NCBI RefSeq assembly: GCF_002753895.1 | Contig: NZ_NJER01000001.1 | Coordinates: forward strand, 124,001-188,000 | Length of the DNA stretch: 64,000 bases | DNA from: Halobacteriovorax sp. JY17 | GTDB taxonomy: Bacteria > Bdellovibrionota > Bacteriovoracia > Bacteriovoracales > Bacteriovoracaceae | Reading direction: 5' to 3' | Shown here: in pieces, positions 28,380 to 59,737 of the stretch | Layout: each line of letters begins with the position of its first letter | How positions within the stretch are numbered: position 1 is the stretch's first letter | The notes under the pieces: generated by a model | Seen by the model: only the letters and a program-made list of their open reading frames with translations | Database searches by the model: none | Told to the model about the DNA's origin: nothing | Made by a program: the position numbers and the translations under genes

Positions 28380-30653
28380 ATGAGAAAGATGGCCTTGGCA
28401 GTTATTGCTTTAAACTTACTTCTAGTTTCTTGTAAGAAAGAGACTTTTCCTGCTGCAGCACCTGTAGTGAATGGAACTGAACATGTCGATACTAGTGACT
28501 CAAACGATGGTGTAGCCGATAGTGATAATTCTCCTGTTGAGGTTGATAATAGGCACGAGATTACTAAGCTCATTGAAGAAACAGATTTAGATAGTAACAA
28601 GTTTTCTGTCGTCAGAAAATTATACGAAAAAGAAGTTTCAAAAGTAACTTTGTCTGAAGGGTCAGATACAGCGGAGGTTCTAGGACACATAAGAGATCTT
28701 TCTAATATTGTAAAAATGGTTAAGGGAAAGAATCACTTCGCAGTAATGTGTGAACTCTATTCGATAAGTGGGTGTGATGGTGTCTCAAGTGCAGCTGACT
28801 TAGCTAGTAAGTTAAGAGGAAAGTACTTAGAGACAGATTCTTTGAAAGGAATCATTTATGACCTAGTTGCTTTTGAACTAGTAAGCGAAGAAGAGAAAGA
28901 GAAGTTTTTAAATAGTAGAATGACTCTTAACTTGCTTAGCAATAGATTAAATAGCTTCTCTATAAGGGGAGGTATGAGTTATGAGCTTATTTCAACAGGA
29001 TTAAATCTATATAAGAGTATTTTTGAAAAGTTAAGCGACAACTCACTTTATAAAGTTCTTAATAAATTTGTAAGAAGTTACAAAATTGAATCAATTGTTT
29101 CCGTTCAGGGAGTTGAGAAGCACTTTGAGCGATATATTTCTATTATAATAGAGATGATAGATGAAGATCGATTAGTATTTGAATTAAATAGGAATGAATT
29201 ATCCTTGATAAAGGTTTTTCTTAAGAACGGGCAGGAGATCTCCTTAAAGAATAAAATTTCTAATCTCTTCTTTATTTCGTATGGATTTATTGATTCTGAA
29301 GTAGATACAGAAGAATTTTTGAAGTTTTTAGATCTCTTAATATATGAAGAAATGAAGAGTTCAAAGGATAATTTACTCAGTGATTTTTTGAATATTCCTT
29401 TCTTGAGTAGTCAATTGGAAGTGGATGAAGTCTCAAAAGTGATAGAGGAAAAATTGAAATCAGCTCTCACTGATCGTTCTGTTGAGTACAGACTGCACTT
29501 ACTAGAAGTTCAAAAGCTTAAGTTTAGACTAAGAACTGACTCAAGCACTGAAGCAAATAAGGAAATTAAAAAATCTATAACAAGTGCTCTAAATTCATAT
29601 TATGACAAAAACTACAAATCAGATAATGTGTTTAATCTTGATTCTTCTTCAGATAATTTATTTGGAAATGAAGTAGATGTTGAAGATGAAACAGTAATAG
29701 TAAAGTTTAGAGAGTTAAATATTATCGCTCCAGGAGTTTATGGAATAAAAAATAAACACTTGGATATAACTTTTGAAGAAGGCGTTTTGGGTCACCCCTT
29801 GTCTCTTATTGTTACTAATGGAAAGAATATTAAAGTCGATTCCGTAAATATTATTGGTCTCAATATTTATACAGTCCCAACTCAAAAGAACACAAAGACT
29901 CTTGATGCAGAATCTATTCTAAGAGAGAAATACTTTCCTTCGCTACCAGAGCAATTTGAAGAGGAACTAGTGATGGATAGAAGTTATCAAGATCAAAGTC
30001 ATAGTTTTAATAGAGCATGCTCTACTTTTGGTGCGCAAATAATGGGACAAGTAACAAAGGTCACAGAAGTAGGTATTAGAAACGAAGGCCTTATTGGGTA
30101 CGTTTCTAGCCCTCTTCTCAATCTTAATGGAAGAAATGGTCTAAACGCTGGGAGTGTTACGATCAATGCCCCAAGTATTAAAAAAATCACACTTATAGCA
30201 AATGGTGAAAGAGGTGAGAATGGTCAAAGTAATTCGTCATTATTTTTTGATAATGGAGTGATGAGAAAAACATTTGAAAGAAAGTTTAAACTAGAATGTG
30301 AGACCATTGATATGTTCTGTTATGATAGAAGAGAAGGGAACTGCACTTCTAGAACTAGTACCGTTATTGATAATGGTAGTGTCGTAGTAACTCTTAAGCA
30401 GCCTTCTCCAGGTCTTGCAGGTAGAGGTGGAGATGGTGGAAATATTACGATAAAAGGAAGATTGAAAGACAGTCTTATAAGTAATGTTGGTGGGAAATCT
30501 GGGGTGTCTGGTGCTAACTACACTGAAGATGTATTCTATAATTCATACTTAAGTTCTACCAATCCAAACTTATATTCACCTACTTATAATTCTAATTTAT
30601 TAGAGAGTAAGTTACATGATGGACAAGCAGGTTCATTACTTGTTCATGAATAA
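28380..30653 (+). CDS. Large lipoprotein coupled to the RHS gene
   Basis: A 757-residue protein with a lipoprotein signal (MRKMALAVIALNLLLVSCKK, lipobox LVSC). The first 500 or so residues are mainly helical. The last third becomes beta- and glycine-rich with collagen-like runs (NGRNGLNAGS near residue 585, PGLAGRGGDGGN near 678, VGGKSGVSGAN), which resemble Gly-rich surface-protein tails. The ATG at 28380 has GGAG upstream; an earlier in-frame GTG would precede the lipoprotein signal. Its stop overlaps the RHS start by 8 bases (ATGAATAA), so the two are translationally coupled. I infer it anchors, chaperones or displays the RHS protein. Confidence 0.7.
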   Translation: MRKMALAVIALNLLLVSCKKETFPAAAPVVNGTEHVDTSDSNDGVADSDNSPVEVDNRHEITKLIEETDLDSNKFSVVRKLYEKEVSKVTLSEGSDTAEVLGHIRDLSNIVKMVKGKNHFAVMCELYSISGCDGVSSAADLASKLRGKYLETDSLKGIIYDLVAFELVSEEEKEKFLNSRMTLNLLSNRLNSFSIRGGMSYELISTGLNLYKSIFEKLSDNSLYKVLNKFVRSYKIESIVSVQGVEKHFERYISIIIEMIDEDRLVFELNRNELSLIKVFLKNGQEISLKNKISNLFFISYGFIDSEVDTEEFLKFLDLLIYEEMKSSKDNLLSDFLNIPFLSSQLEVDEVSKVIEEKLKSALTDRSVEYRLHLLEVQKLKFRLRTDSSTEANKEIKKSITSALNSYYDKNYKSDNVFNLDSSSDNLFGNEVDVEDETVIVKFRELNIIAPGVYGIKNKHLDITFEEGVLGHPLSLIVTNGKNIKVDSVNIIGLNIYTVPTQKNTKTLDAESILREKYFPSLPEQFEEELVMDRSYQDQSHSFNRACSTFGAQIMGQVTKVTEVGIRNEGLIGYVSSPLLNLNGRNGLNAGSVTINAPSIKKITLIANGERGENGQSNSSLFFDNGVMRKTFERKFKLECETIDMFCYDRREGNCTSRTSTVIDNGSVVVTLKQPSPGLAGRGGDGGNITIKGRLKDSLISNVGGKSGVSGANYTEDVFYNSYLSSTNPNLYSPTYNSNLLESKLHDGQAGSLLVHE

Positions 30654-33600
30654 ATTTTTATTATTCATATTGATATTTTCTCAGAGCGTATTTTCTCAGG
30701 ACTTAGATCTTGAGGAAATCGCGAAAGATATTTCAAGTTCTACAAATAGTATTAACCATAGCGATATTTATCATAAGAGTATTCCATCTTTTAAAGTACA
30801 AGAAAACCTTGGAAACTTTTCAACTTCATTCTCAATTCAAATTTTTAAGAATCTCGTAAACTTCGATAGGGTTAAGTTTAATTACTCATCATCAAGTTAC
30901 AAAAATTCTGGTTTTGGAGTTGGATGGGAGGTTGATCTCCCAAGAATAATATTCAAAAAATCGACACCGAAGAAGTATGAGTTTGTTGTTTTGGGGTTTC
31001 AGTATGTAGATAAGCTGACTCGAAGTGAATCCGACTACCCAGAATTTGAGCAACGATTACAAGATTTAAATCTTACTCAGAGCTATAGGGTTTATATCCC
31101 TCGTAAAATTGGGAATTTTAATAAGTATCTTCGATTTGACGATGGGTCTTGGTTAATAATAAAGAAAGACGGAAGCTATCTTAAGTTAAATGAAAGAGGT
31201 CTTGTTGTCTCTATCTCAGACTCTTTTAATAATAGAGTTCAAATTGAGTGGGAAGAAGACTTTCCTAAGAGAATATTCTCAACCTCTAGTGAGGCCTTAT
31301 TTGAATACGAAACTATCGATGATCTTCCTTATGTAAATTATAATTACCTTGTTAATAAGAGGGAGCTTCGGCGAGTCGAAGTGAAGAGTAAGGGAAGTTC
31401 TGCGACTTATAAGTTTAATATTAAGTCAGGCTATCTTCAAAGCGTTAAGAAAGTAGGAAGTGAAGTAGCTATTCTAGATGTAGAATATGCTGATCTTGTA
31501 TCTAAAGAAGAGCCAAAGTTTGAATTCGAACACAATACTAGCTATGTGTTTGATAATTCTCTGTCTACCCCTAGTCTCTATAAGAAGAACAAGAATATTC
31601 ATCTCTTTCTTGATCTACAAGGGGATAATTATAGCGATGAGCTATATTATAAATCGAGTGATTACTTAAGAAAAGTAATTGAAGTCTTTTCTAAATCCAT
31701 CTCTAATAGTGAGTTAAATTCTTCAACTAATATAGATGAAGTTCAAAGTGAAATAGATACGATATCTTTAGGTAAGAAAATATTCTTAAGTGAGTCTGGT
31801 CTAAAGAAAGAGTATCAATCCAATTTTAGAGAAAGGCCATTTAGTGTTTTCGTAAAAGAAGTGAATAGTAATGGAAGATCTAGGTATAGGCTTAACTACA
31901 GCACTAATATCATGAAAGTATTGGATGTTGACCAAGATAATGTAGCAGAGTTAGTTGTTTGTTCCGGCGGTGATAAATTGTCTCATTCATTAGAGGATTC
32001 TAAAGAAAGAAAGAATTCTATCTTTGAGTACTCAAGAACTGGGAGAGTTGATCCTTCTGAGAATTCTTCACAAGCTAGAGTATATAGTCTTCAGAAGACT
32101 AATGGATTTTTAAACTTTGAATTACGAAGGGATATTAATTTAAAATGTCATAGTGATTCGATTTTTGCTGATATTAATCTAGATGGAAGTATTGATGTTA
32201 TAAATGGATCGGAAGTTTATTTTGGAGATAATAGTTCTGGATATTTTCAAAAGAAAAGTATCTCTTTAGATAAAGTTGTTAATGTTGATGATTATACTCG
32301 CGTAAAAGATAAGAAGTTTATTTATTCATTTGATAGAGCTACAAAGAAGATTAGATTTGTCGAGGGAGAAGGAGAGTTTAGGTCTCCACTAGAGAATCAA
32401 TCCGTTTATAGTTTTAATGATCATTTTAAATATTTAAGACTTGATACGAATACAAAATTATTATCTAAAATTAAAAATTCTCATGGTGGACTTCATACTG
32501 TTAATTATGATTATAAAGGTAAGTGGGTTGTTTCATCAGTTAAAAGTTCTTCGGATGAGTTAGTAGAGACTAGTTCTTATAACTACATTACGCCTGTTTT
32601 AAATAATCAAAGCGGTCTTTTTGAGGGGTTTTCAATAGTAGATATTGAGAATAAGAAAAATAGTGATTACTTCAAAAATAAATATCAAAGACTTATTTTT
32701 TCTAATATTAGCGATATTTCCTCTTCTTATTCTTGGGGAAAAGACGAACTCTATGGATACTTAAGAAAGAAAGTTAGTGGTTCCTACGATGCTGTTCAGT
32801 ACAATAAAGGTGAGAGACATATTGTTCATAATGATTGGTCTTTTATGAACCTTAGTGATGATCAAGTCTTTATTTATAAGAGTAAGAAAACAGATAGTAT
32901 CGCTTTTGATAACACTATTGTTAGAAATAAATCTTTAATTAATGAGTATAAATTCAATGAGGATAACTTTCTTTATGAGTCTATTGAAACAAGAGTTGAG
33001 GGGGGATTGTTAGGACTATTTTCACACCTTAGTGAGAATAGTCTTAGTACTGTTAAAGAGTTCTCTGAAGATAAGAGTCGCTTAAAGACGTTTGTAAAAA
33101 AAGAAATTATAAGTGATGATTTTATAAATATAAAAAAGATTATTCGAAATATATATGATGTAGAACTTGGTTATATAGTTGAAAAGTATACTAATGAGAA
33201 TCAAAGTGAAAGTCTTTATCGCGACTCATTCGGGCGATTATCAAACGTCTTAAGAAATAATACAGATTACTACTCATTTGAATATACTAAGGACACCAAC
33301 TTGATTTCTTCTTATGAGCGTAATGATAATAGAGTAAAAGTCAAAAGTGATAGTATAACTGGACAAAAACTAGAATTAGTAACGCTAGTAGGTGATACTG
33401 TAGAGTATGAGTACGACTCTAGTGACAGACTTATTAGGGTCATGAAAAATAATACCGAGATTATAAATTCTGATTATCTCGGCGACAATAAAGTTAAGTT
33501 GAGAAGAGCGAATGATATAGAGAATATTGAGTTGGACGCATGGGGAAGAGTTAAAACTAGTCAGAAAATTGAGCCATTTTCTTTGGAAATAATGGAATCT

Positions 33601-35637
33601 AGAAGCGATAAAAGTGGAGATGAGTTTTTAAAAGTTACAGGAGAGCAAATTACATTAGAGAGGTATTACGATGAGTTTTCAAGGCCAGTACAAGAAATTG
33701 ATCATTTAAGAAACTCTAATAAAGAATACACTTATTCTATAGAAGGAAGACTTGAGTATTTAAACGGGAACTTAATAACTACTTCTGATCATAATGAAGG
33801 TTATTCGTTTAACTTTGAAGCTACTTTTGGAAACTCTGTTGAGATGAGCTATTCTTTAGATAATAGAATGAGAAGAGTTAAGGGGAACTTGTTTGATACT
33901 AAATGGGGTTATAATCGAGAAAATGCAGTTAATTTGAGTCAAGTTAAAGGAGAAGGAGTTGAGTTTGATTTTATTAGGACATTTTCCACAAATTTATCGA
34001 GCTTTACTCTTTCAGATATGGCCCTAGGGTTGAACTCAACATTTATTAATAATGAAAGTGGAAAGTTCTTGGAAACAAAATGTTTAGGCGGGGCTTGCCG
34101 AGGATTTTATAAAGTTCAAAATTCTTACGAAGATACACTTTTAAAAGAAGAAGTTATAAAGACAGAAGGGCTCTCTCAAAATATTTATTATGAGTATGAA
34201 AAATCTAATCTTTCAAAAGTGGTGTCAAAGGATTATGAACTCAGTTTTGATTATGACCAGTTTGGTAAGATTTCCAAAACGTCTATTGGAGGCTTGTCTT
34301 ATGAAAGAGAGGAGGATTACTTAGGTAATATTCTCTCGTTTAAGCCTTATGTGAACAATGTTCAGTATAATAATCATGGTCTGGTTAGCAATATTATCTT
34401 TAATGATAAATTAAAGATAAGCTTCTCATACGATGGTCTGAGGCTTATTCAAACTTCTATGATTAAATCTGGCAATAATGAATACAATATTAAGGTCAAA
34501 CAGAATGATCTTAACTTGATAACTTCCGTAAATAGAACCTCTCGAAATGGAGGTTCTAAGAATACATATCACTATGATGCTAATTCTCAGTATATATCAG
34601 CTCTTAGAGAAAGCACTTTTGAAAGGAACAAGAAAGGGCAAGTCGTATCAATAGAAGAGCGTAAGTTTTCTTATTGTTATAATTTACTTTGTCAGGCCGA
34701 CAATCTAAGCTTCTTTTACTCTGAGAACGAAGAGCTTAGAATAGTTACCAATAAGAAAAGAATTGTTTTTGAAAAAATAAATAATAACTCTTTTAAAGTT
34801 GAAAATGATATTATTCACTCATTCAAAATTGGAGGGAAGATTGTAGCAGTCTCTATCACTAATGAAGTCTACCCTGTTTTATCTGATCATCTCGGAAGCG
34901 TTGTTGCAATGTTTGATCAAGATGGAGAGTTACTATGGGAAAGAGAATATAGTGCTTACGGAGTAAAGAGTTTGATCTATACTTCTAATAACAAAGCGAG
35001 AATTCTCGAGAGTAAGACAATTTTTAGTTTTGCTGGTTTGATTGAAGTTCCAGGAGTAAGTCATCTCTATTGGTCTAAGACACGAATTTATTCTCCAAAG
35101 GTAAGAGAGTGGATGACTTTAGACCCTGCTTATATCTGGGAACCGTTATCTCTAGTGAGTAGACGAGGAGATTGGAATCCTCTTGTCTACTGCAATGGTG
35201 ATCCTGTGAATTTTATTGATCCTAGTGGGTATTACAGTGAATCATATTCTCTTAGTGCAGGAGATGGTTCAAATGATTATGATGGAGCAACTTTTAATAC
35301 ACAAAGAGAAGCTGATTGGGCAACAATGGCCATCGATCAAAACCAAATAAATAGTATAATGGAACAGGATAGACTAATAAGTAATATTGGTATGGGGATA
35401 ATTGGAAGTGCTGTACTGGCCACAGGGGCATACGCTTACGGTCCTTCTCTTTATGCTTCAGTAATGACACTTGCAGCTCAAAATCCACAAGCCGTTAAGG
35501 AAGGTGTTGAGCTGGCAAATCAAGTATTGCTTAAAGGAAAAGGGAAGGCACCAAGTTCTAATGTTCCTGATACTTTTGTTAACTGGTTTCAAACAGGAAG
35601 AAGATTTGTTGAAAAGGTAAGAGATGAGCTTAAATAG
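30646..35637 (+). CDS. RHS/YD-repeat protein with variable C-terminal tip (putative polymorphic toxin)
   Basis: A 1663-residue exported protein with a signal peptide (MNKFLLFILIFSQSVFS). The N-terminal part resembles SpvB/Tc-toxin B proteins (GFGVGWEVDLPRI). Asp-rich FG-GAP/VCBS-like turns lie near residues 322, 427 and 508 (DVDQDNVAELV, DINLDGSIDVI). YD-type repeats fill the middle. The RHS core (SDHLGSVVAMFDQDG to FIDPSG, about 1410-1528) is followed by a 135-residue non-conserved tip with a hydrophobic Gly/Ala segment (about 1580-1612). RHS shells enclose and release such tips as toxins. Tip activity is unknown; the hydrophobic segment hints at a membrane target. A small membrane-protein gene overlaps its 3' end, as expected for an immunity gene. 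The ATG 30646 starts the signal peptide. Confidence 0.88.
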   Translation: MNKFLLFILIFSQSVFSQDLDLEEIAKDISSSTNSINHSDIYHKSIPSFKVQENLGNFSTSFSIQIFKNLVNFDRVKFNYSSSSYKNSGFGVGWEVDLPRIIFKKSTPKKYEFVVLGFQYVDKLTRSESDYPEFEQRLQDLNLTQSYRVYIPRKIGNFNKYLRFDDGSWLIIKKDGSYLKLNERGLVVSISDSFNNRVQIEWEEDFPKRIFSTSSEALFEYETIDDLPYVNYNYLVNKRELRRVEVKSKGSSATYKFNIKSGYLQSVKKVGSEVAILDVEYADLVSKEEPKFEFEHNTSYVFDNSLSTPSLYKKNKNIHLFLDLQGDNYSDELYYKSSDYLRKVIEVFSKSISNSELNSSTNIDEVQSEIDTISLGKKIFLSESGLKKEYQSNFRERPFSVFVKEVNSNGRSRYRLNYSTNIMKVLDVDQDNVAELVVCSGGDKLSHSLEDSKERKNSIFEYSRTGRVDPSENSSQARVYSLQKTNGFLNFELRRDINLKCHSDSIFADINLDGSIDVINGSEVYFGDNSSGYFQKKSISLDKVVNVDDYTRVKDKKFIYSFDRATKKIRFVEGEGEFRSPLENQSVYSFNDHFKYLRLDTNTKLLSKIKNSHGGLHTVNYDYKGKWVVSSVKSSSDELVETSSYNYITPVLNNQSGLFEGFSIVDIENKKNSDYFKNKYQRLIFSNISDISSSYSWGKDELYGYLRKKVSGSYDAVQYNKGERHIVHNDWSFMNLSDDQVFIYKSKKTDSIAFDNTIVRNKSLINEYKFNEDNFLYESIETRVEGGLLGLFSHLSENSLSTVKEFSEDKSRLKTFVKKEIISDDFINIKKIIRNIYDVELGYIVEKYTNENQSESLYRDSFGRLSNVLRNNTDYYSFEYTKDTNLISSYERNDNRVKVKSDSITGQKLELVTLVGDTVEYEYDSSDRLIRVMKNNTEIINSDYLGDNKVKLRRANDIENIELDAWGRVKTSQKIEPFSLEIMESRSDKSGDEFLKVTGEQITLERYYDEFSRPVQEIDHLRNSNKEYTYSIEGRLEYLNGNLITTSDHNEGYSFNFEATFGNSVEMSYSLDNRMRRVKGNLFDTKWGYNRENAVNLSQVKGEGVEFDFIRTFSTNLSSFTLSDMALGLNSTFINNESGKFLETKCLGGACRGFYKVQNSYEDTLLKEEVIKTEGLSQNIYYEYEKSNLSKVVSKDYELSFDYDQFGKISKTSIGGLSYEREEDYLGNILSFKPYVNNVQYNNHGLVSNIIFNDKLKISFSYDGLRLIQTSMIKSGNNEYNIKVKQNDLNLITSVNRTSRNGGSKNTYHYDANSQYISALRESTFERNKKGQVVSIEERKFSYCYNLLCQADNLSFFYSENEELRIVTNKKRIVFEKINNNSFKVENDIIHSFKIGGKIVAVSITNEVYPVLSDHLGSVVAMFDQDGELLWEREYSAYGVKSLIYTSNNKARILESKTIFSFAGLIEVPGVSHLYWSKTRIYSPKVREWMTLDPAYIWEPLSLVSRRGDWNPLVYCNGDPVNFIDPSGYYSESYSLSAGDGSNDYDGATFNTQREADWATMAIDQNQINSIMEQDRLISNIGMGIIGSAVLATGAYAYGPSLYASVMTLAAQNPQAVKEGVELANQVLLKGKGKAPSSNVPDTFVNWFQTGRRFVEKVRDELK

Positions 35638-49836: not shown

Positions 49837-50724
49837 ATGATCCCCTTTGCAAGTCTCGCTGACAAGAATATGGCCGATAAAATTGCTACAGAAATAAAGA
49901 AGCATGGAATATTTATTGAAGTGAGCCGGCTTAGTGATGAGTATGTTCTAAGTGTATTAAAAGAAGAAGATGTAGAACAAGCAACTGATATATACAGAGT
50001 GATGTTAGGGTTACCAAAGCAGTTCAAGCCTTCTAAGGAGTGGACAGAGATACAGGCCATTCCAATGGGGCTTACAACTAAAGTTGTAATTCTCTTCTGT
50101 GTTATTGTCTACGCCCTGGATGCTTTTAAGATTATGCCGGAGCTTTATTCAGTAATGAAGATTTCTGAGAATGCAAACTTTGAATTAGCAGAAATAAGAA
50201 ATGGACAAGTGTGGAGACTCGTCACTCCAATTTTTCTTCACTTTGGCTTCATGCATATTCTCTTTAATTTGATGTGGATGAAAGATCTTGGAAAAATTAT
50301 TGAAAGAGAGAAGTCTTCAAATTTTCTTCTCGTATTTATAGTTATTATTGGAACACTTTCTAACTTTTCTCAGTTTCTTATTTCTGGTCCAAACTTTGGA
50401 GGAATGAGTGGAGTGGTCTACGGACTCTTAGGTTACTTGTGGATGTATAAGCGTATAAATAAAGAAGCAGAATTCTCACTTCCAAAGAGTGATGTTATGT
50501 TAATGATTGGTTGGTTCTTTCTCTGTTTAGTTGGCGTCTTTGTCTTTGCTATTGCAAATATGGCCCACGCCGTTGGTCTAACTCTGGGAATGCTTCTTGG
50601 GATCTTCTATGGAGCCAGAGATTCAAAAGAAAGTACTTCAATAAGAGATATTGGGCTTTTCTCTCTCTTAGCGTTTGCTCTTCCATTAATTACATGGGTA
50701 GTAGAGATCATTAGAATAAAGTAA
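49837..50724 (+). CDS. glpG: Rhomboid family intramembrane serine protease (GlpG type)
   Basis: A 295-residue inner-membrane protein. A cytosolic N-terminal domain (about 1-75, beginning MIPFASLADKNMADKIA) of the GlpG type is followed by six predicted spans. Catalytic residues are Ser191 (GGMSGVVYG) and His244 (NMAHAVGL); oxyanion residues are His140 and Asn144 (HILFN). All four sit ten residues before their E. coli GlpG counterparts (H150, N154, S201, H254). Rhomboids cut single-span membrane proteins within the bilayer. It lies just before the 1842-residue exported protein, which has its own promoter, so a substrate relation is speculative. Confidence 0.92.
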   Translation: MIPFASLADKNMADKIATEIKKHGIFIEVSRLSDEYVLSVLKEEDVEQATDIYRVMLGLPKQFKPSKEWTEIQAIPMGLTTKVVILFCVIVYALDAFKIMPELYSVMKISENANFELAEIRNGQVWRLVTPIFLHFGFMHILFNLMWMKDLGKIIEREKSSNFLLVFIVIIGTLSNFSQFLISGPNFGGMSGVVYGLLGYLWMYKRINKEAEFSLPKSDVMLMIGWFFLCLVGVFVFAIANMAHAVGLTLGMLLGIFYGARDSKESTSIRDIGLFSLLAFALPLITWVVEIIRIK

Positions 50725-50831: not shown

Positions 50832-53800
50832 TTGAAAGTAAAGAATCTAATTCTTCTTATTTTTCTTAGTGTGCTAAGTGCTCAGTCAGCGCTGGCCCAT
50901 AGACTTGTGTATGAGACTCAAGATAGCTCGAATAATATAGCAACAGGAGTTTACCTAAATGAAGTCACAGGTGATCTCGTTATTCAAAAGTATCAATTCT
51001 CTAAGAGTGAATTAAAAGCGAGAGATTACGAATTTCCAAAAGAAGTAAAATCTTTTGCTAGCTTCTATCATCCTCTTTCAAAGCTTAGGCCTGATATTGC
51101 CCAAGAAAAAATTAATATAAGTCTTCATCAGTCTAGTCCTGATATTCAAGTTGAGCTTGAGAAGGCCATGAGAATTCCTAGAGCAGCAGGTAATGAGTTA
51201 ATTCAAAAAGTAAATTTAGCCATTTTTGAAGGTGGAAGTAATAAAGTTATTCCTGGTGGTGGTGGTGGTGGTAGTGGTTCTCAGAAGAGCTTTGCTATTC
51301 TCTCTGATAAGAGTGGTAAGCTTCTTCTTGCAAAGGGTAGAAATTCTAAGTTGAGCCTTCCTAAGGTCAGTTCATTTCCAAAAGATCTCGTAAACTCACT
51401 ATCATCTAAGAGTTCTAAAGAATTAGATATTAGTACTCCAATGAAGGTTGATAGGGCCCTTTCCTCTATGAACTCAATTGTGAGAACTTATGACTTCAGT
51501 CAAAATCAGAGAAATGAATTAATCAATGAATTAAATAAGAAGAAGAATGCTCTAAGTACAAAGATTTCAAATATGAGCTTAGTTAAGTCTGTTATAAAAA
51601 ATGGAGAGAGAGTTGATCTCTACTTTGATTTCAATGACGGGTCTTTCTACTTAAAAACATCTAAGAATGGTGTTCTTAAAGATGATGAGTTCTTTCCTGT
51701 TTCCGATGACAAGAATTTAGAAGATTTAAAGCATAAACTTGAAAGAGAAGGGCTCTATAGTAAGAATGAATTTGATGAGAGTTTTGATGATTACTATATT
51801 CAAAGTTGTGAGAGTCTAGAGAGTTTGCAAAGTCTACTTCCTGATCTCGATAGTAATATCGCCAATATTTTAAAAGTAAATGATAAGTTATGGGGCAGTT
51901 ACTTAGAGAACGCTATCTCTAGTAAGCCGATTATTCTTCAAGATGGAGGGATGGTCTTTGCTATATCTGCATTAAATGAATCTCATAATGTTAAATTGAA
52001 GGTGAATAACAGCGGAGAAGTAATAGGTGTTGATTTTCTTGATGAAGAAAAGGCCACGAGAGATGGACTTAAAGTTAAGAGAGTTACTGAAAATGGAAAG
52101 GCCTATTTTAAAATAGTTGCAACTGACCCAATTAACAAAGAAGAGATAGATCAATTCTTCTTTGATTCTGAAAAGTCTGCCGATGGAAGAAATAGCGTTG
52201 CTGTCTACGTTCGTGGAAGTGGAGAGGGCAAAGATATTTATGATAAGAATATTTATAAGATTTCTCTTTCTGAGGGAAGAATTACTCAGGCAGATAAGAA
52301 AATACAACTTTCTAGTTCTAGAGATGATGCTTACCCTCAGAACATTTCTAGAGGGAGTGGGCAAGAAGTTAAATCTTTCTTCTTTAAGAACTTTTTTAGC
52401 TTAGATTCTAAGAGAGAGAAACTCGCAGATGAAATTCAAAGTGCGGTGAATGGTCAAATAGGATCAATTAACAAAGATGGGAAAGTCTATTTAAACAAAG
52501 GTGAAATAAATCAGGTCGTTTTAGATATTGTAAACGATGTCGAGAGAGATATTCCAGAGCTTAATGCCGATGTGGGCAAGCTGACAGCGAAGACATATGA
52601 GCACTCATATAAGAATTTTGTTTCTAATATCGTTCCTAAAATGGTTAAAGAACTTCTTCCTGGGGAGAGTGATAAATTCTACTCAGATATAACTAACGCT
52701 TCAATGCTCTCTCTTAATAGGTGTCTTGAGAAAGCATCTGAGAAGTCTAATGAAAAAGCTGCTGCTGATTGTATGGAAGTTTATATGAAAGAAGCTCCTA
52801 TAAAAATAGGAGAGGAAGTCTTAAAGTTCCAATTGAAAGTAAATGATCAGGAAGCTTTGTCGGCGACATCTGTAAGCGAGTATACAAAGTGTATTAAAGA
52901 AAATTATGATGCGACTCTAGATATGGCCTACGTTAAAGGTTGTGTTTTTAAAGCTCTTTTGACAAGTGTAGATAAAGGTTTAGAGAGAGTCGTGTCCGTA
53001 TCCTTAGAAGATATGGAGAATGTCTACAAGAAAAACGGAAAGAATATAACCCTTAATGTTAGCAGTGAAACTCTAGATAGAGCTAGGAAAGACTTAAGAG
53101 AGTGCTATGAGAAGAAAGGTTATATTGCCCCACGCTTATTCAAAGATAATTATAATCAAAGAAAGTTAAATTCTCTTGGGACTGACGAATTTAAGAATGA
53201 CCTACTTAGTTGCTCTTCTCGTATCGAACAAGTCGTAGGAAGGAGTGTTTCTCAAATTCTTGTAAACCATGAGCTTGATGCAATGGATATTAAGGGGAGT
53301 GAGAAAGACCAAATAAGAAATACGACACTAGTTAGTGGTTATGATAATTGTATTGAAATTCAAAAGGGGATGGCCGAGAGATTGGCTGCAAAAGGTGAAT
53401 TCTCTACTGTAAGGGCCGGACTATGTGCAGACCTTGTGACTCTTACAGCTACTAATCTCGTTATAACAAAGACACTTAAAGATAAGTTAGGAAACGATCT
53501 TTGGGCTGACCTTATGATAAGGGATAAGGCTCCGCATATTAAGTGTTTTGAAGATTTAAAGAGTGCTGCACGAAATGAATTAATAGAATCGGAAGGTCGA
53601 ACCAATGGATTTGAAAAAGAGTCCGCAGAGTGTTTAAAAGAGAGTGTAGTTTGGGCCTCATATCACCTCGGACAAAGTGAGCTAGCAAATGTTTTTGCAA
53701 GTGATCCACTTTATCGAAATGTTTCTTTAAGTGATCAAAAGAAAGATTACTACGCTAAGATGATTCAGAGTTGCTTTAAAAAGAAGCTTGCAAGTTATGA

Positions 53801-56360
53801 TTCTGTAACGGAAGTCTCTAGTTCTCTAGATAAAATTCAGTCGGCGTGTACAGTCGAGCTTGTTATGAGTGACTCTGCAAGTTCTGATATCTTAGCTCCT
53901 ATTGTTACCGGAATGCTTGAAGATAGTGGTGTGGATAAAGAAATTATTGATAAGACTCGTGGGGATATTGTAGATAAAATGAGACAGAATGTTTCAAAGG
54001 CCCTAGAGAAAAAGGATCTAAATCTTGATGAAGTGGTGATTGAGTTTAAGAAAATTCAGGGGGAGGCGACTTACCTCGTTGCTGATTCAACAATAGATAA
54101 GTATGTTCACGATATGGTTCCAGGTGAAAATAGTGAGAAGATCTCTAAAGAATTAAGAGAGAAGCTATTTGAAGGGAAGTATAATTTTAGACCTCGTCTT
54201 TTAGAAGCAAAGAGTAAGGAAGACTTAGACTTCATTGTTAATCATATGACTGAGATTGCTGCTGTAGACTTAACTGAGCATGCAAGTCGCGCAGAGGGAA
54301 AGAAGCTTCAAGAAAAGGGTCTTCTAAAAACTAATGAAGATGTTGAAAAGCTTGCAAAGAATGGACGAAATTATATGGAGAAGTGCCTCGAAGAGAGAGC
54401 GCCTTCAGTAGAGTTAAAGACCCATCTAGATAGCTGTGTTTTAAAAGTGAAGTCTTCTGTTACTTATGATGTATTTGATGATCAATTAAAAGAACTTCTC
54501 TTTACAGGTCCTTATTCTGAAGCGTTCACAGATAGTGAAAGAGAAGTAGTCTATAAGAAGTTTATAAATGAAGATCTTAGAGAAGGAATTAATCAGTCTT
54601 ATAAAGACGATAATCTCGAAGCTCTCCAATCGAAGTTCACTCTTGAAGCGACAAGTGTTATAGGAGAGAAAGTTCTAAGAAAATCTATTAACGATCTCTA
54701 TATTGGAAATATCAATAAGTCCTCTCCAGATTATTTAGCTAAATCTACTGAGGCCAATGCTGTGGCAGATATTGCAAATGATGAATTACAAAATTGTTTA
54801 GAATCACTGAAGGGAAAGCCCGATGCTAATACTGAAGAATGTATCAATGCAGCTCGCTTTAAAGCAACTTCACTTGTCTTTGCAGATAAAGTCCGTCCAT
54901 TTCTAAATTTACTAAGTAAAAATAAGAGTGTTCAAGATAGATTTTTAAATACTGAATTAAGCGTTTTTAAAAGATGTACAGAAGTTAAAGGAAATCTGGC
55001 TAAAGAATATACTGATGCCGTTAATGGTTGTTTGGTTGAGTCTATTTTTGATTTAGTCAGTGAGCTGGTTGTAAAGGGAAGTGAAACGACAGACTTCTTA
55101 AAGAATATTGCGGAAAGTGATTTATCAGATTTTAGAGTTTGTATTGAAGATAAGAAGCGCGATCTCGTAAAAAATAGTGCTGATCTTAAATCAAGTGAAG
55201 CAAGTAGAAAGAGTTTATATGCAAAAATAGATAAGAGAGAAGATTTTTGGATGGAGTATTTTAATAATTCTCCAAGTGAAGATTCTCAGAAGAAAATTGA
55301 CTGGGCCATTGAGGTCGTGCAGGTCTGTGGACTGAGCAGAGCAGTTCCTGAAGTTTTAAGCTCTCTTAGACAATCAGGAAAACTAAGTGAAAAGTTATCT
55401 CTATCTAGAGGTGAAGAGCTCTATACAATCAACGCAATAGCTAAAGTTGAGCAATTTGCAAAAGACACTCTTCAAAATGGCCTTTGGCTAAAAATGGAAA
55501 GTAAAGAAACTGAATCTAACTCTACAGTAAGTGAAGAACTAGAGCTAGAGACTCTCTCTACTTATCTAGATCAGTATATGCCTATGATTGGAGAGTATCT
55601 AAAGAAACTTCACGACTATGATGAAAAGGGCTCTAAAGCTGCACTAGATAAATTATTAAACCAGATCCGGGCGGAACTTAAAGTTAAGGGAGAACTCTCT
55701 CTTGATGACTTAAAGAGTATTCTCATGAAGTCCGATTTAATAGATATCGTTATTGAGGCGGAGATTGCAAACTTTGTAAAAAAAGAAGCAAAGGAGCCTC
55801 TAAGTAAAGAAGGTGTAGATGCTGCAACAATTGAAAAGTTAGGATCGAAGAATATTCTTGGCCCAATCTTTAAGACAAGTGAAGGGAAGAAAGCTATAGC
55901 AGAAATAAAGGAGCAATTTATTGCGCCTATGCTTGCAGGTAAGGGGAGTAAAGATATTCCTGAATCAATCGTTACTGATGTTAAGCATCTGTTGGCCAAA
56001 GATACGAGAGTGGGAGGCTTTGTCGAAACATTGGCGGGAGCAATTGTTCAAAAGAAATTAGAAGAGAAGAGACCGAAGAACTTTGCTTCATCGGGAATTG
56101 CTTCAATGCTTGGTTACGATACAAAGGATTTCCTTTGGAGTAATTTACGCACAAGAAGAGAAAGTGGTACAGACACCGCGCAACAGCCTGTGAATAAGGC
56201 CCTGGGGTACTTTGGTGATAAGATTCTACTTCCAATGCTACTTAAAAATGACTTGGGAACACGGACTGAGAAGGGAATATTTAGAGATAGTAAAATTGAT
56301 ATTATGCAAGAGCGGCAGGAAAAATTCTCCACAATGATTGAAGACATTATGGAGCTATAA
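50832..56360 (+). CDS. Giant exported protein with about ten cysteine-pair helical repeats
   Basis: A 1842-residue protein beginning at TTG 50832, directly at a signal peptide (cleavage after QSALA). The N-terminal 600 residues are mixed alpha/beta, with a run of six glycines at about 142-147 encoded by a (GGT)6 tract. From residue 631 to 1499 there are about ten helical modules, each opening with a hydrophobic-x-x-Cys-hydrophobic motif (LNRCLEK, YTKCIKE, YDNCIEI, HIKCFED, IQSCFKK, MEKCLEE, LQNCLES, FKRCTEV) and a second Cys usually 14-28 residues later. They look like disulfide-stapled helical hairpins. The last 340 residues are helical without cysteines. I know no family like it. A sigma28-like promoter precedes it; the stop lies 8 bases from convergent argS. 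Confidence 0.75.
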   Translation: MKVKNLILLIFLSVLSAQSALAHRLVYETQDSSNNIATGVYLNEVTGDLVIQKYQFSKSELKARDYEFPKEVKSFASFYHPLSKLRPDIAQEKINISLHQSSPDIQVELEKAMRIPRAAGNELIQKVNLAIFEGGSNKVIPGGGGGGSGSQKSFAILSDKSGKLLLAKGRNSKLSLPKVSSFPKDLVNSLSSKSSKELDISTPMKVDRALSSMNSIVRTYDFSQNQRNELINELNKKKNALSTKISNMSLVKSVIKNGERVDLYFDFNDGSFYLKTSKNGVLKDDEFFPVSDDKNLEDLKHKLEREGLYSKNEFDESFDDYYIQSCESLESLQSLLPDLDSNIANILKVNDKLWGSYLENAISSKPIILQDGGMVFAISALNESHNVKLKVNNSGEVIGVDFLDEEKATRDGLKVKRVTENGKAYFKIVATDPINKEEIDQFFFDSEKSADGRNSVAVYVRGSGEGKDIYDKNIYKISLSEGRITQADKKIQLSSSRDDAYPQNISRGSGQEVKSFFFKNFFSLDSKREKLADEIQSAVNGQIGSINKDGKVYLNKGEINQVVLDIVNDVERDIPELNADVGKLTAKTYEHSYKNFVSNIVPKMVKELLPGESDKFYSDITNASMLSLNRCLEKASEKSNEKAAADCMEVYMKEAPIKIGEEVLKFQLKVNDQEALSATSVSEYTKCIKENYDATLDMAYVKGCVFKALLTSVDKGLERVVSVSLEDMENVYKKNGKNITLNVSSETLDRARKDLRECYEKKGYIAPRLFKDNYNQRKLNSLGTDEFKNDLLSCSSRIEQVVGRSVSQILVNHELDAMDIKGSEKDQIRNTTLVSGYDNCIEIQKGMAERLAAKGEFSTVRAGLCADLVTLTATNLVITKTLKDKLGNDLWADLMIRDKAPHIKCFEDLKSAARNELIESEGRTNGFEKESAECLKESVVWASYHLGQSELANVFASDPLYRNVSLSDQKKDYYAKMIQSCFKKKLASYDSVTEVSSSLDKIQSACTVELVMSDSASSDILAPIVTGMLEDSGVDKEIIDKTRGDIVDKMRQNVSKALEKKDLNLDEVVIEFKKIQGEATYLVADSTIDKYVHDMVPGENSEKISKELREKLFEGKYNFRPRLLEAKSKEDLDFIVNHMTEIAAVDLTEHASRAEGKKLQEKGLLKTNEDVEKLAKNGRNYMEKCLEERAPSVELKTHLDSCVLKVKSSVTYDVFDDQLKELLFTGPYSEAFTDSEREVVYKKFINEDLREGINQSYKDDNLEALQSKFTLEATSVIGEKVLRKSINDLYIGNINKSSPDYLAKSTEANAVADIANDELQNCLESLKGKPDANTEECINAARFKATSLVFADKVRPFLNLLSKNKSVQDRFLNTELSVFKRCTEVKGNLAKEYTDAVNGCLVESIFDLVSELVVKGSETTDFLKNIAESDLSDFRVCIEDKKRDLVKNSADLKSSEASRKSLYAKIDKREDFWMEYFNNSPSEDSQKKIDWAIEVVQVCGLSRAVPEVLSSLRQSGKLSEKLSLSRGEELYTINAIAKVEQFAKDTLQNGLWLKMESKETESNSTVSEELELETLSTYLDQYMPMIGEYLKKLHDYDEKGSKAALDKLLNQIRAELKVKGELSLDDLKSILMKSDLIDIVIEAEIANFVKKEAKEPLSKEGVDAATIEKLGSKNILGPIFKTSEGKKAIAEIKEQFIAPMLAGKGSKDIPESIVTDVKHLLAKDTRVGGFVETLAGAIVQKKLEEKRPKNFASSGIASMLGYDTKDFLWSNLRTRRESGTDTAQQPVNKALGYFGDKILLPMLLKNDLGTRTEKGIFRDSKIDIMQERQEKFSTMIEDIMEL
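51255..51272 (+). repeat. (GGT)6 microsatellite encoding a glycine run
   Basis: Six GGT codons in frame within the 1842-residue protein gene (Gly142-147), followed by AGT GGT. Length changes by slippage would alter linker length without a frameshift. Confidence 0.85.
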
Positions 56361-58126: not shown

Positions 58127-58198
58127 AAATAGCTCTGGTAAAAAATTGTAGTACTTATGATATACTTAATTGAAATCTTTAGAAATGCAAAGGTTATA

Positions 58199-58582
58199 AT
58201 GCGTAATGTAGTAGGCTTTTTATTATTACTTCTCTTCTCACATTCTGTGTTTTCTCAAACGGCTGAGAAAGCGCAAGAGATGTTAAATAAAGCAGAGAAG
58301 GATGCGGTTCTAAGGCGCAGGCTTGAGCCTAGAATTAGCGAGAAGTACTACCTTGGAAGGTTTCTCATTTATGACTGTGAGGATCGCCACTTTGCCTGTG
58401 TAAATCTACCTAGTTTTTTTAACTGTGAAGAAAAGAGAGAGATTGAAAAAGAAAACAAAAATGTTTTCTTCTCATGCGCGCCACTTAAGCAGTATAAGAC
58501 TTTAAAAGATTGTACGGACGCTTATATGGGTTTTATCTATAGAAGAACTAATAAGGCGTTCTGCGTAAATAAAGTCTTCTAA
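58199..58582 (+). CDS. Small exported cysteine-rich protein
   Basis: A 127-residue protein with a signal peptide (MRNVVGFLLLLLFSHSVFS) and six cysteines in the mature part (DCED, FACVN, NCEEK, SCAPL, DCTD, FCVN), an even number consistent with three disulfides. The start is ATG 58199, with AGG upstream; the upstream in-frame start at 58157 would put 14 non-signal residues before the hydrophobic stretch. It converges with the GNAT gene, overlapping by 4 bases. Function is unknown. Confidence 0.65.
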   Translation: MRNVVGFLLLLLFSHSVFSQTAEKAQEMLNKAEKDAVLRRRLEPRISEKYYLGRFLIYDCEDRHFACVNLPSFFNCEEKREIEKENKNVFFSCAPLKQYKTLKDCTDAYMGFIYRRTNKAFCVNKVF

Positions 58583-59104: not shown

Positions 59105-59737
59105 CTAGTAAGTGCTTGAAATTCTAAAAAGGTTTTCCATCGCAAGCTGTGACATTGCCTTAGAAAAAAAGGAGAAGATTGTGTTGGGAATTCCCGAATG
59201 AGCGCCTTCCCAGTGGGCAGTTGTATAGAATAAGCAACGATTCTTGTATTTTACTGCTGTAATAGTTCCCTTTAAATTCCTAAGAAAACCTTTATCAAAT
59301 AGAAAGGGATAGCTCCCAACTTTTCTAATTCTTGGAATCTTGAAATTCAAAGTCATATTGTATGGAAGAAGACTCGATGAGAGCAGAAAATCTACTCTTT
59401 CTGATTTATCGTCATAATTGCTGCGTTTAATATAGCCAATATGATCTTTAAATGACTCGTAGTGTGAGAGTTTTTTAAGGGCAAAACGGCAGTTCTTCTT
59501 ATGTAGCCCTGCAATATAAAAATCTAGCTTCTGTTTTTTTTGTTTAAAAATTTCAAAATCTTCGACTTGTGACTTGGTGTATATATCGCCGCTTAATATT
59601 TTTTTCCATACCGATTCTCCTACAGCTTTTTCGATACTTGAGGCATCAATTGGGGCATTCGATGGGAGGATAGGCTTGCCATGAGTGAGTTGAATAAGGG
59701 CTAATATAGTGAAAATATATTGTTTTATGTAACGCAT
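59105..59737 (-). CDS. Exported protein of unknown function, possibly SRPBCC-like
   Basis: A 210-residue protein with a signal peptide (cleavage near LTHG) and a soluble alpha/beta domain. The C-terminal half (RVDFLLSSSLLPYNMTLNFKIPRIRKVG, then KGTITAVKYKNRCLFYTTAHWEG and a final helix SKAMSQLAMENLFRISS) recalls the strand order and long C-terminal helix of START/SRPBCC ligand-binding proteins, but I would not rely on it. AAGGTACG precedes the ATG. It is divergent from the topoisomerase operon over an 84-base spacer. Confidence 0.55.
   Translation of the reverse strand: MRYIKQYIFTILALIQLTHGKPILPSNAPIDASSIEKAVGESVWKKILSGDIYTKSQVEDFEIFKQKKQKLDFYIAGLHKKNCRFALKKLSHYESFKDHIGYIKRSNYDDKSERVDFLLSSSLLPYNMTLNFKIPRIRKVGSYPFLFDKGFLRNLKGTITAVKYKNRCLFYTTAHWEGAHSGIPNTIFSFFSKAMSQLAMENLFRISSTY

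Follow-up and report, generated by a model that had tools for sequence, protein, structure and literature searches.

Disulfide-bridged helical repeats have been called rare, and in 2008 three repeat proteins with intramolecular disulfides were known to the authors who made that remark (PMC2581425). HcpB and HcpC, the cysteine-rich, Sel1-like proteins of Helicobacter, are exported bacterial arrays of disulfide-bridged two-helix repeats, and CagY, of the Cag type IV secretion system of H. pylori, is a large exported protein whose repeat region consists of tandem alpha-helical modules, in which regularly placed cysteines matter for module stability (PMC2581425). Halobacteriovorax and other genera of the Bacteriovoracaceae have been placed among the intraperiplasmic predators (PMC11656739).

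We analysed a 64,000-nucleotide stretch of DNA of Halobacteriovorax sp. JY17 (hereafter, the window), in which the open reading frame 50832-56360 on the forward strand starts with TTG and encodes 1842 amino acids. The window protein resembles HcpB and HcpC in being an exported array of two-helix repeats with cysteine pairs, although the disulfides of the window protein are a prediction. It resembles CagY in being a large exported protein with helical modules and regularly placed cysteines. However, Hcp repeats have 36 residues and are of the TPR/Sel1 kind, for which 36-44 residues are expected, whereas the unit of the window family has about 58, with 11-69 residues between the cysteines. PF08238 (Sel1) gave no match in the window protein, in 7 orthologs or in the superfamily members scanned, and no PDB chain had a significant sequence match to the window protein. 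CagY has modules of about 38-39 residues that are repetitive at the DNA level and it is a member of a secretion system, whereas the modules of the window family are old and diverged, their pairs are strictly kept, and no secretion genes adjoin them; at E values up to 0.5, the Pfam listings of the scanned members contain no CagY-type family. The alpha-solenoids of TPR, HEAT and armadillo proteins follow the same helical-hairpin building plan but are not disulfide-stapled. CHCH domains and the UCR hinge are likewise helical hairpins closed by disulfide, yet they have two disulfides with fixed spacing of the CX3C/CX9C type, whereas the window family has one pair per hairpin and variable spacing; PF02320 matched weakly at residues 1182-1211 (E 0.08). 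Since the principle is common with Hcp and CagY, but sequence profiles, repeat length and context differ, we regard the window protein as representing a new family that follows a principle already known. Searches of Pfam, NCBIfam and PDB sequences with the window protein returned nothing significant, in agreement with the first-pass annotation, which had matched the repeat to no named family, and no description of the stapled-hairpin family was found in literature searches. As judged from the sequences, the protein belongs to a so far unnamed family in which the cysteines are almost the sole unchanged feature.

A signal peptide at residues 1-22 (MKVKNLILLIFLSVLSAQSALA; 50832-50897, forward strand as for all features of the gene) was read by eye from the TTG start, and the N-termini of the orthologs are equivalent, which favours the earlier claim that the protein would be exported. 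Profile-profile comparison and the strands of the structural model delimit an N-terminal region (residues 23-335; 50898-51836) in which a unit of about 90-110 residues that combines a beta sheet with helices occurs three times in diverged form, as N1 (23-130), N2 (131-244) and N3 (245-335), with profile-profile matches of 90-94% for N1-N2, 82-90% for N2-N3 and 72-78% for N1-N3. These beta-containing repeats are unrelated to the cysteine modules. A second beta-rich region follows at residues 340-500 (51849-52331) according to the secondary structure of the model. The C-terminal domain (residues 1661-1842; 55812-56357), common to the window protein and its orthologs (type A) and to the type B paralogs, is the best-conserved part across the superfamily, in the consensus of which it carries the signatures GGFxE... 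and DFxWxxLR. The lone conserved cysteine outside the array, C326 (51807-51809), is invariant in 16/16 orthologs; its equivalent is C109 in 12/13 type B paralogs and is missing from the paralog L031. As an unpaired cysteine of an exported protein, it is possibly a candidate for an intermolecular bond.

Apart from C326, the cysteines of the window protein form ten pairs. Pairs 1, 6 and 9, namely C631/C647 (52722-52772), C981/C1006 (53772-53849) and C1382/C1400 (54975-55031), are, like the other seven, marked by ortholog invariance and by helix placement in the models. Spacing differs across orthologs for pairs 2, C687/C704 (52890-52943; 17-39), 4, C840/C865 (53349-53426; 16-50), 5, C905/C934 (53544-53633; 28-65), 8, C1322/C1337 (54795-54842; 11-35), and 10, C1437/C1499 (55140-55328; 26-69), the last having extra helices in its loop. 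The remaining pairs are 3, C758/C794 (53103-53213), and 7, C1185/C1202 (54384-54437), which are discussed with the paralogs below. From pair 1 to pair 10 the within-pair spacings are 16, 17, 36, 25, 29, 25, 17, 15, 18 and 62 residues, and the distances from one first cysteine to the next are 56, 71, 82, 65, 76, 204, 137, 60 and 55. The first-pass annotation had described about ten cysteine-pair modules; both the count, 631/647 to 1437/1499, and its coordinates were borne out, with the codon of C631 starting at 52722 and that of C1499 ending at 55328. The motif that it placed at module starts, hydrophobic-x-x-Cys-hydrophobic, is strict at 8/10 first cysteines, but 905 (PHIKCF) and 1382 (FKRCT) deviate. 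The spacings that it gave for the second cysteine are corrected by the values above, and it left the 62-residue pair 1437/1499 unmentioned. Its module length of about 90 residues did not stand, being only the mean of unequal distances; the evolutionary unit is about 55-65 residues.

We then considered conservation in 16 full-length orthologs with 20-57% identity to the window protein. The mature orthologs have exactly 21 cysteines each in the same places (16/16), i.e. the ten pairs and C326, with no further cysteine in the residues past 150 that the count covers. Invariant columns comprise 21/21 for Cys compared to 1/7 for Trp, 6/66 for Phe, 5/94 for Gly and 0/14 for His, and every residue type other than Cys is at most 14% invariant. 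This invariance of the cysteines is far beyond chance. Among the orthologs, the number of residues within a pair differs by up to 43 (11 to 69 overall), whereas most between-pair spacings vary by just 0-10 residues; two long gaps apart, the gaps between neighbouring pairs are 40, 49-54, 45-55, 38-42, 47-48, 45 and 34-37. In the 1476-residue paralog L031, 758/794 and 1185/1202 are lost, each jointly, and in the type B paralog, of 1329 residues, the pairs 631/647 and 1185/1202 are missing, with the remaining cysteines in register; type A and type B profiles match at 99.94% (E 1.2e-36). One exception to pairwise loss was seen in L123, where a deletion took one cysteine of a pair and left the odd one.

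AlphaFold2 models were built on nine-sequence alignments for residues 23-1160 (mean pLDDT 77.5, pTM 0.43) and 880-1842 (80.5 and 0.48). The cysteine array is predicted almost wholly helical. In all ten pairs the first cysteine lies 2-14 residues before a helix end and the second 3-14 residues past the start of a following helix, as would be required for a staple close to the loop of an antiparallel hairpin; random position pairs pass a strict version of this helix test in 17-18% of cases. The two cysteines do not lie equally deep in their helices in 840/865, with 13 and 3 residues, or in 981/1006, with 5 and 14. The proposed pairing is thus supported by the joint loss of partners, the length variation within pairs and the helix placement in the models. 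A shifted pairing, in which each second cysteine would bond the next first cysteine, is disfavoured by the joint losses, the tight between-pair spacing and the helix depth. The outcome that the first-pass annotation had named as refuting, an absence of modules or cysteines not paired as proposed, did not arise. The earlier description of the sequence between pairs as highly diverged and helical also agrees with the models, where the array is nearly all helix, and with the cysteines being mostly alone in their invariance. With Foldseek and VIA-align, no structure matched either model convincingly (best Z 7.6), which is not itself proof of a new fold, and none was found in the viral structure library. 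HcpB and HcpC were not among the listed rows for either model, but a likeness in fold may lie outside those rows. With pTM of 0.43 and 0.48 and no clear fold match, the regular superhelix of the first-pass annotation is a putative arrangement. The top Foldseek rows were nucleoporins, but a coatomer-like reading (beta-propeller and alpha-solenoid) was dropped with TM of about 0.1 and rmsd >30, and rows for serum albumin were low-scoring bundles.

Modules were also compared as profiles. Non-overlapping modules matched at 95-96% (m7-m8), 92-94% (m4-m8), 88-91% (m7-m9) and 65-74% (m1-m7), and m7-m8 still matched at 79-89% with the cysteines masked, compared to at most 2.4% in reversed controls. 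Modules 5 and 10 gave no match to the other module profiles and are too diverged. These two excepted, the matches lie far above the reversed controls, and we take the module profiles to be homologous to one another. Two modules without cysteines occupy the long gaps: one at residues ~1101-1158 (54132-54305), which has a 92-93% profile match to the other, and one at ~1229-1288 (54516-54695), which matches at 90.5% the cysteine-bearing module g7 of another genus; it is the equivalent of g7, with G1252 and L1265 opposite the two cysteines of g7. Homologs of this other genus of the family (g14; L123-L132) come in two forms, one with 12 pairs and one Cys (~1177 residues) and one with 10 pairs and one Cys (~1036 residues). 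The short form holds a recent tandem duplicate of 42-54% identity over 48-50 residues with a period of 58 (z 16-22 against shuffles). This 58-residue duplicate and the cysteine-less modules in the long gaps indicate that the true repeat unit is about 55-65 residues. The duplicate, together with the occurrence of 12-pair and 10-pair forms in one genus, shows that gain and loss proceed by whole modules. Twelve similarly spaced pairs plus one Cys were also found in L143, from another family of the phylum.

As one long open frame, the same gene recurs in each of the four further genomes of the genus and also outside it, in other genera of the same family. The type A profile found 36/369 genomes of the phylum, all in one GTDB family, and the combined profile, at whose depth the search covered Bdellovibrionota, found 64/369 genomes of that phylum, mostly of one family, with five genomes from two other families. 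A signal peptide, an array of cysteine-pair modules and the shared C-terminal domain, by which we define the superfamily, are present in both types, and the pairs are kept over divergence down to 15-20% identity. The type A gene has a rhomboid-protease gene on one side and argS on the other, and this neighbourhood, widely conserved across genera, comprises suf genes, a fatty-acid hydroxylase gene, the rhomboid gene, argS, parE and parC; no secretion genes, including those of a type IV secretion system, are among the neighbours. The window protein diverges far faster than these neighbours, with 22-26% identity compared to ~60% for ArgS and >70% for ParE. The upstream gene (49837-50724, forward strand) encodes a GlpG-like rhomboid intramembrane protease (Pfam Rhomboid, 5.5e-26; TIGR04239, 3.6e-48, below its cut-off) and ends 107 bp before the start of the window gene on the same strand, making it a possible operon partner. 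It adjoins nearly all type A loci examined; G023 has a type A gene without it. Two small conserved reading frames at 58157-58582 and 59105-59737, with no Pfam match, are kept near argS and parE throughout the family. Elsewhere in the window, 30616-35637 encodes a 1673-residue exported protein that is YD-repeat/Rhs-like, judged by translation alone. The type B gene (L023:3033-7022, reverse strand; in the window's own genome G000:C3 39038-43021) has two flanking genes: L023:7138-8139 encodes an exported protein that is itself conserved, and L023:1196-2929 an exported MnuA-like nuclease (E 8e-13 to NCBIfam NF045851, short of its cut-off). This three-gene arrangement is kept in 13/13 loci.

The explanation that we consider best, and probable as a whole, is that antiparallel two-helix hairpins, each of about 55-65 residues, would follow one another in an array along the middle half of the exported protein. 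In most of them, a cysteine towards the end of helix 1 would bond one near the start of helix 2, so that the disulfide closes the hairpin at the base of its loop. Between the staples, helices of near-fixed length would pack into what may be one continuous rod, while the loops beyond the staples would be free to vary, to lengthen or to accept whole domains. Homologs of DsbA, DsbB and VKOR are present in the genome and could make the predicted bonds. The earlier proposal of disulfide-stapled hairpins stands as regards the helices and the one conserved pair per hairpin, and these homologs agree with it, whereas the bonds themselves are predicted. In one homolog (L076:1748-6304) a bacterial SH3 domain (SH3_3, E 2.3e-9) at residues 1113-1169 sits between the paired C1084 and C1206, which are 122 residues apart compared to 26 at that place in its relatives. 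This single case is evidence that a stapled loop may display a whole domain, and it is the reason why we read the protein as an envelope scaffold in which a helical rod would carry the binding loops. The scaffold would be rigid and located within the cell envelope, most likely in the periplasm, its loops binding other envelope components, and the N-terminal beta repeats and the conserved C-terminal domain would place or anchor it. The scaffold role taken alone is tentative, somewhat short of an even chance.

The first-pass annotation had suggested an adhesin, fibre or prey-contact protein, i.e. a stapled rod outside the outer membrane whose variable loops recognise prey. The signal peptide, the predatory lineage (PMC11656739), the very fast divergence relative to neighbours, the varying loop lengths and the disulfide staples, which would suit an exposed protein, are all compatible with such a role. 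However, nothing positive was found for it: no lipobox, translocator domain, C-terminal anchor or sorting motif was seen in the window protein, no match to an adhesin-typical domain was obtained, the gene occupies one conserved locus beside housekeeping genes across genera, and members of the superfamily occur in further families of the phylum. We consider this role unlikely. Release into the prey during growth in the prey periplasm, with the disulfides keeping the protein stable, would also agree with the signal peptide, and the constant presence of the nuclease gene beside type B fits secretion together with digestive enzymes. The type A locus is without such a nuclease neighbour, though, and no secretion signal beyond the signal peptide was seen, leaving release distinctly unlikely.

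Alternatively, the rhomboid protease encoded by the neighbouring gene might have the window protein as its substrate or partner and process or anchor it. Same strand, short gap and adjacency over wide divergence speak for this relation, but adjacency is weak evidence where the whole neighbourhood is conserved, and we do not accept the link as functional for that reason. Moreover, no transmembrane segment to cut was seen in the window protein besides the signal peptide, and type B and other members, like the type A gene of G023, occur without the rhomboid gene, so that we regard the relation as improbable. The strict invariance of the cysteines could also be expected if they bound a metal or other cofactor or did redox chemistry rather than forming structural disulfides; yet there is no CxxC or CxxCH spacing, the distance within pairs ranges from 11 to 69 residues, no His is invariant, and the protein would be exported to a compartment with DsbA/DsbB homologs. 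This last reading is very improbable.

Across the superfamily, cysteine pairs are maintained and are won or lost together with their modules, and one member has an SH3 domain enclosed by a staple. More speculatively, and rather unlikely in this full form, the superfamily, unnamed so far and centred on Bacteriovoracaceae, may consist of giant exported proteins whose rods of disulfide-closed hairpins offer their loops as insertion sites for binding domains and would thus be a natural display scaffold that predatory bacteria use at their envelope or where predator and prey meet. With the stapled-hairpin array, a large unannotated predator protein gains a testable structure and a recognisable signature, and it becomes a candidate scaffold for protein engineering.
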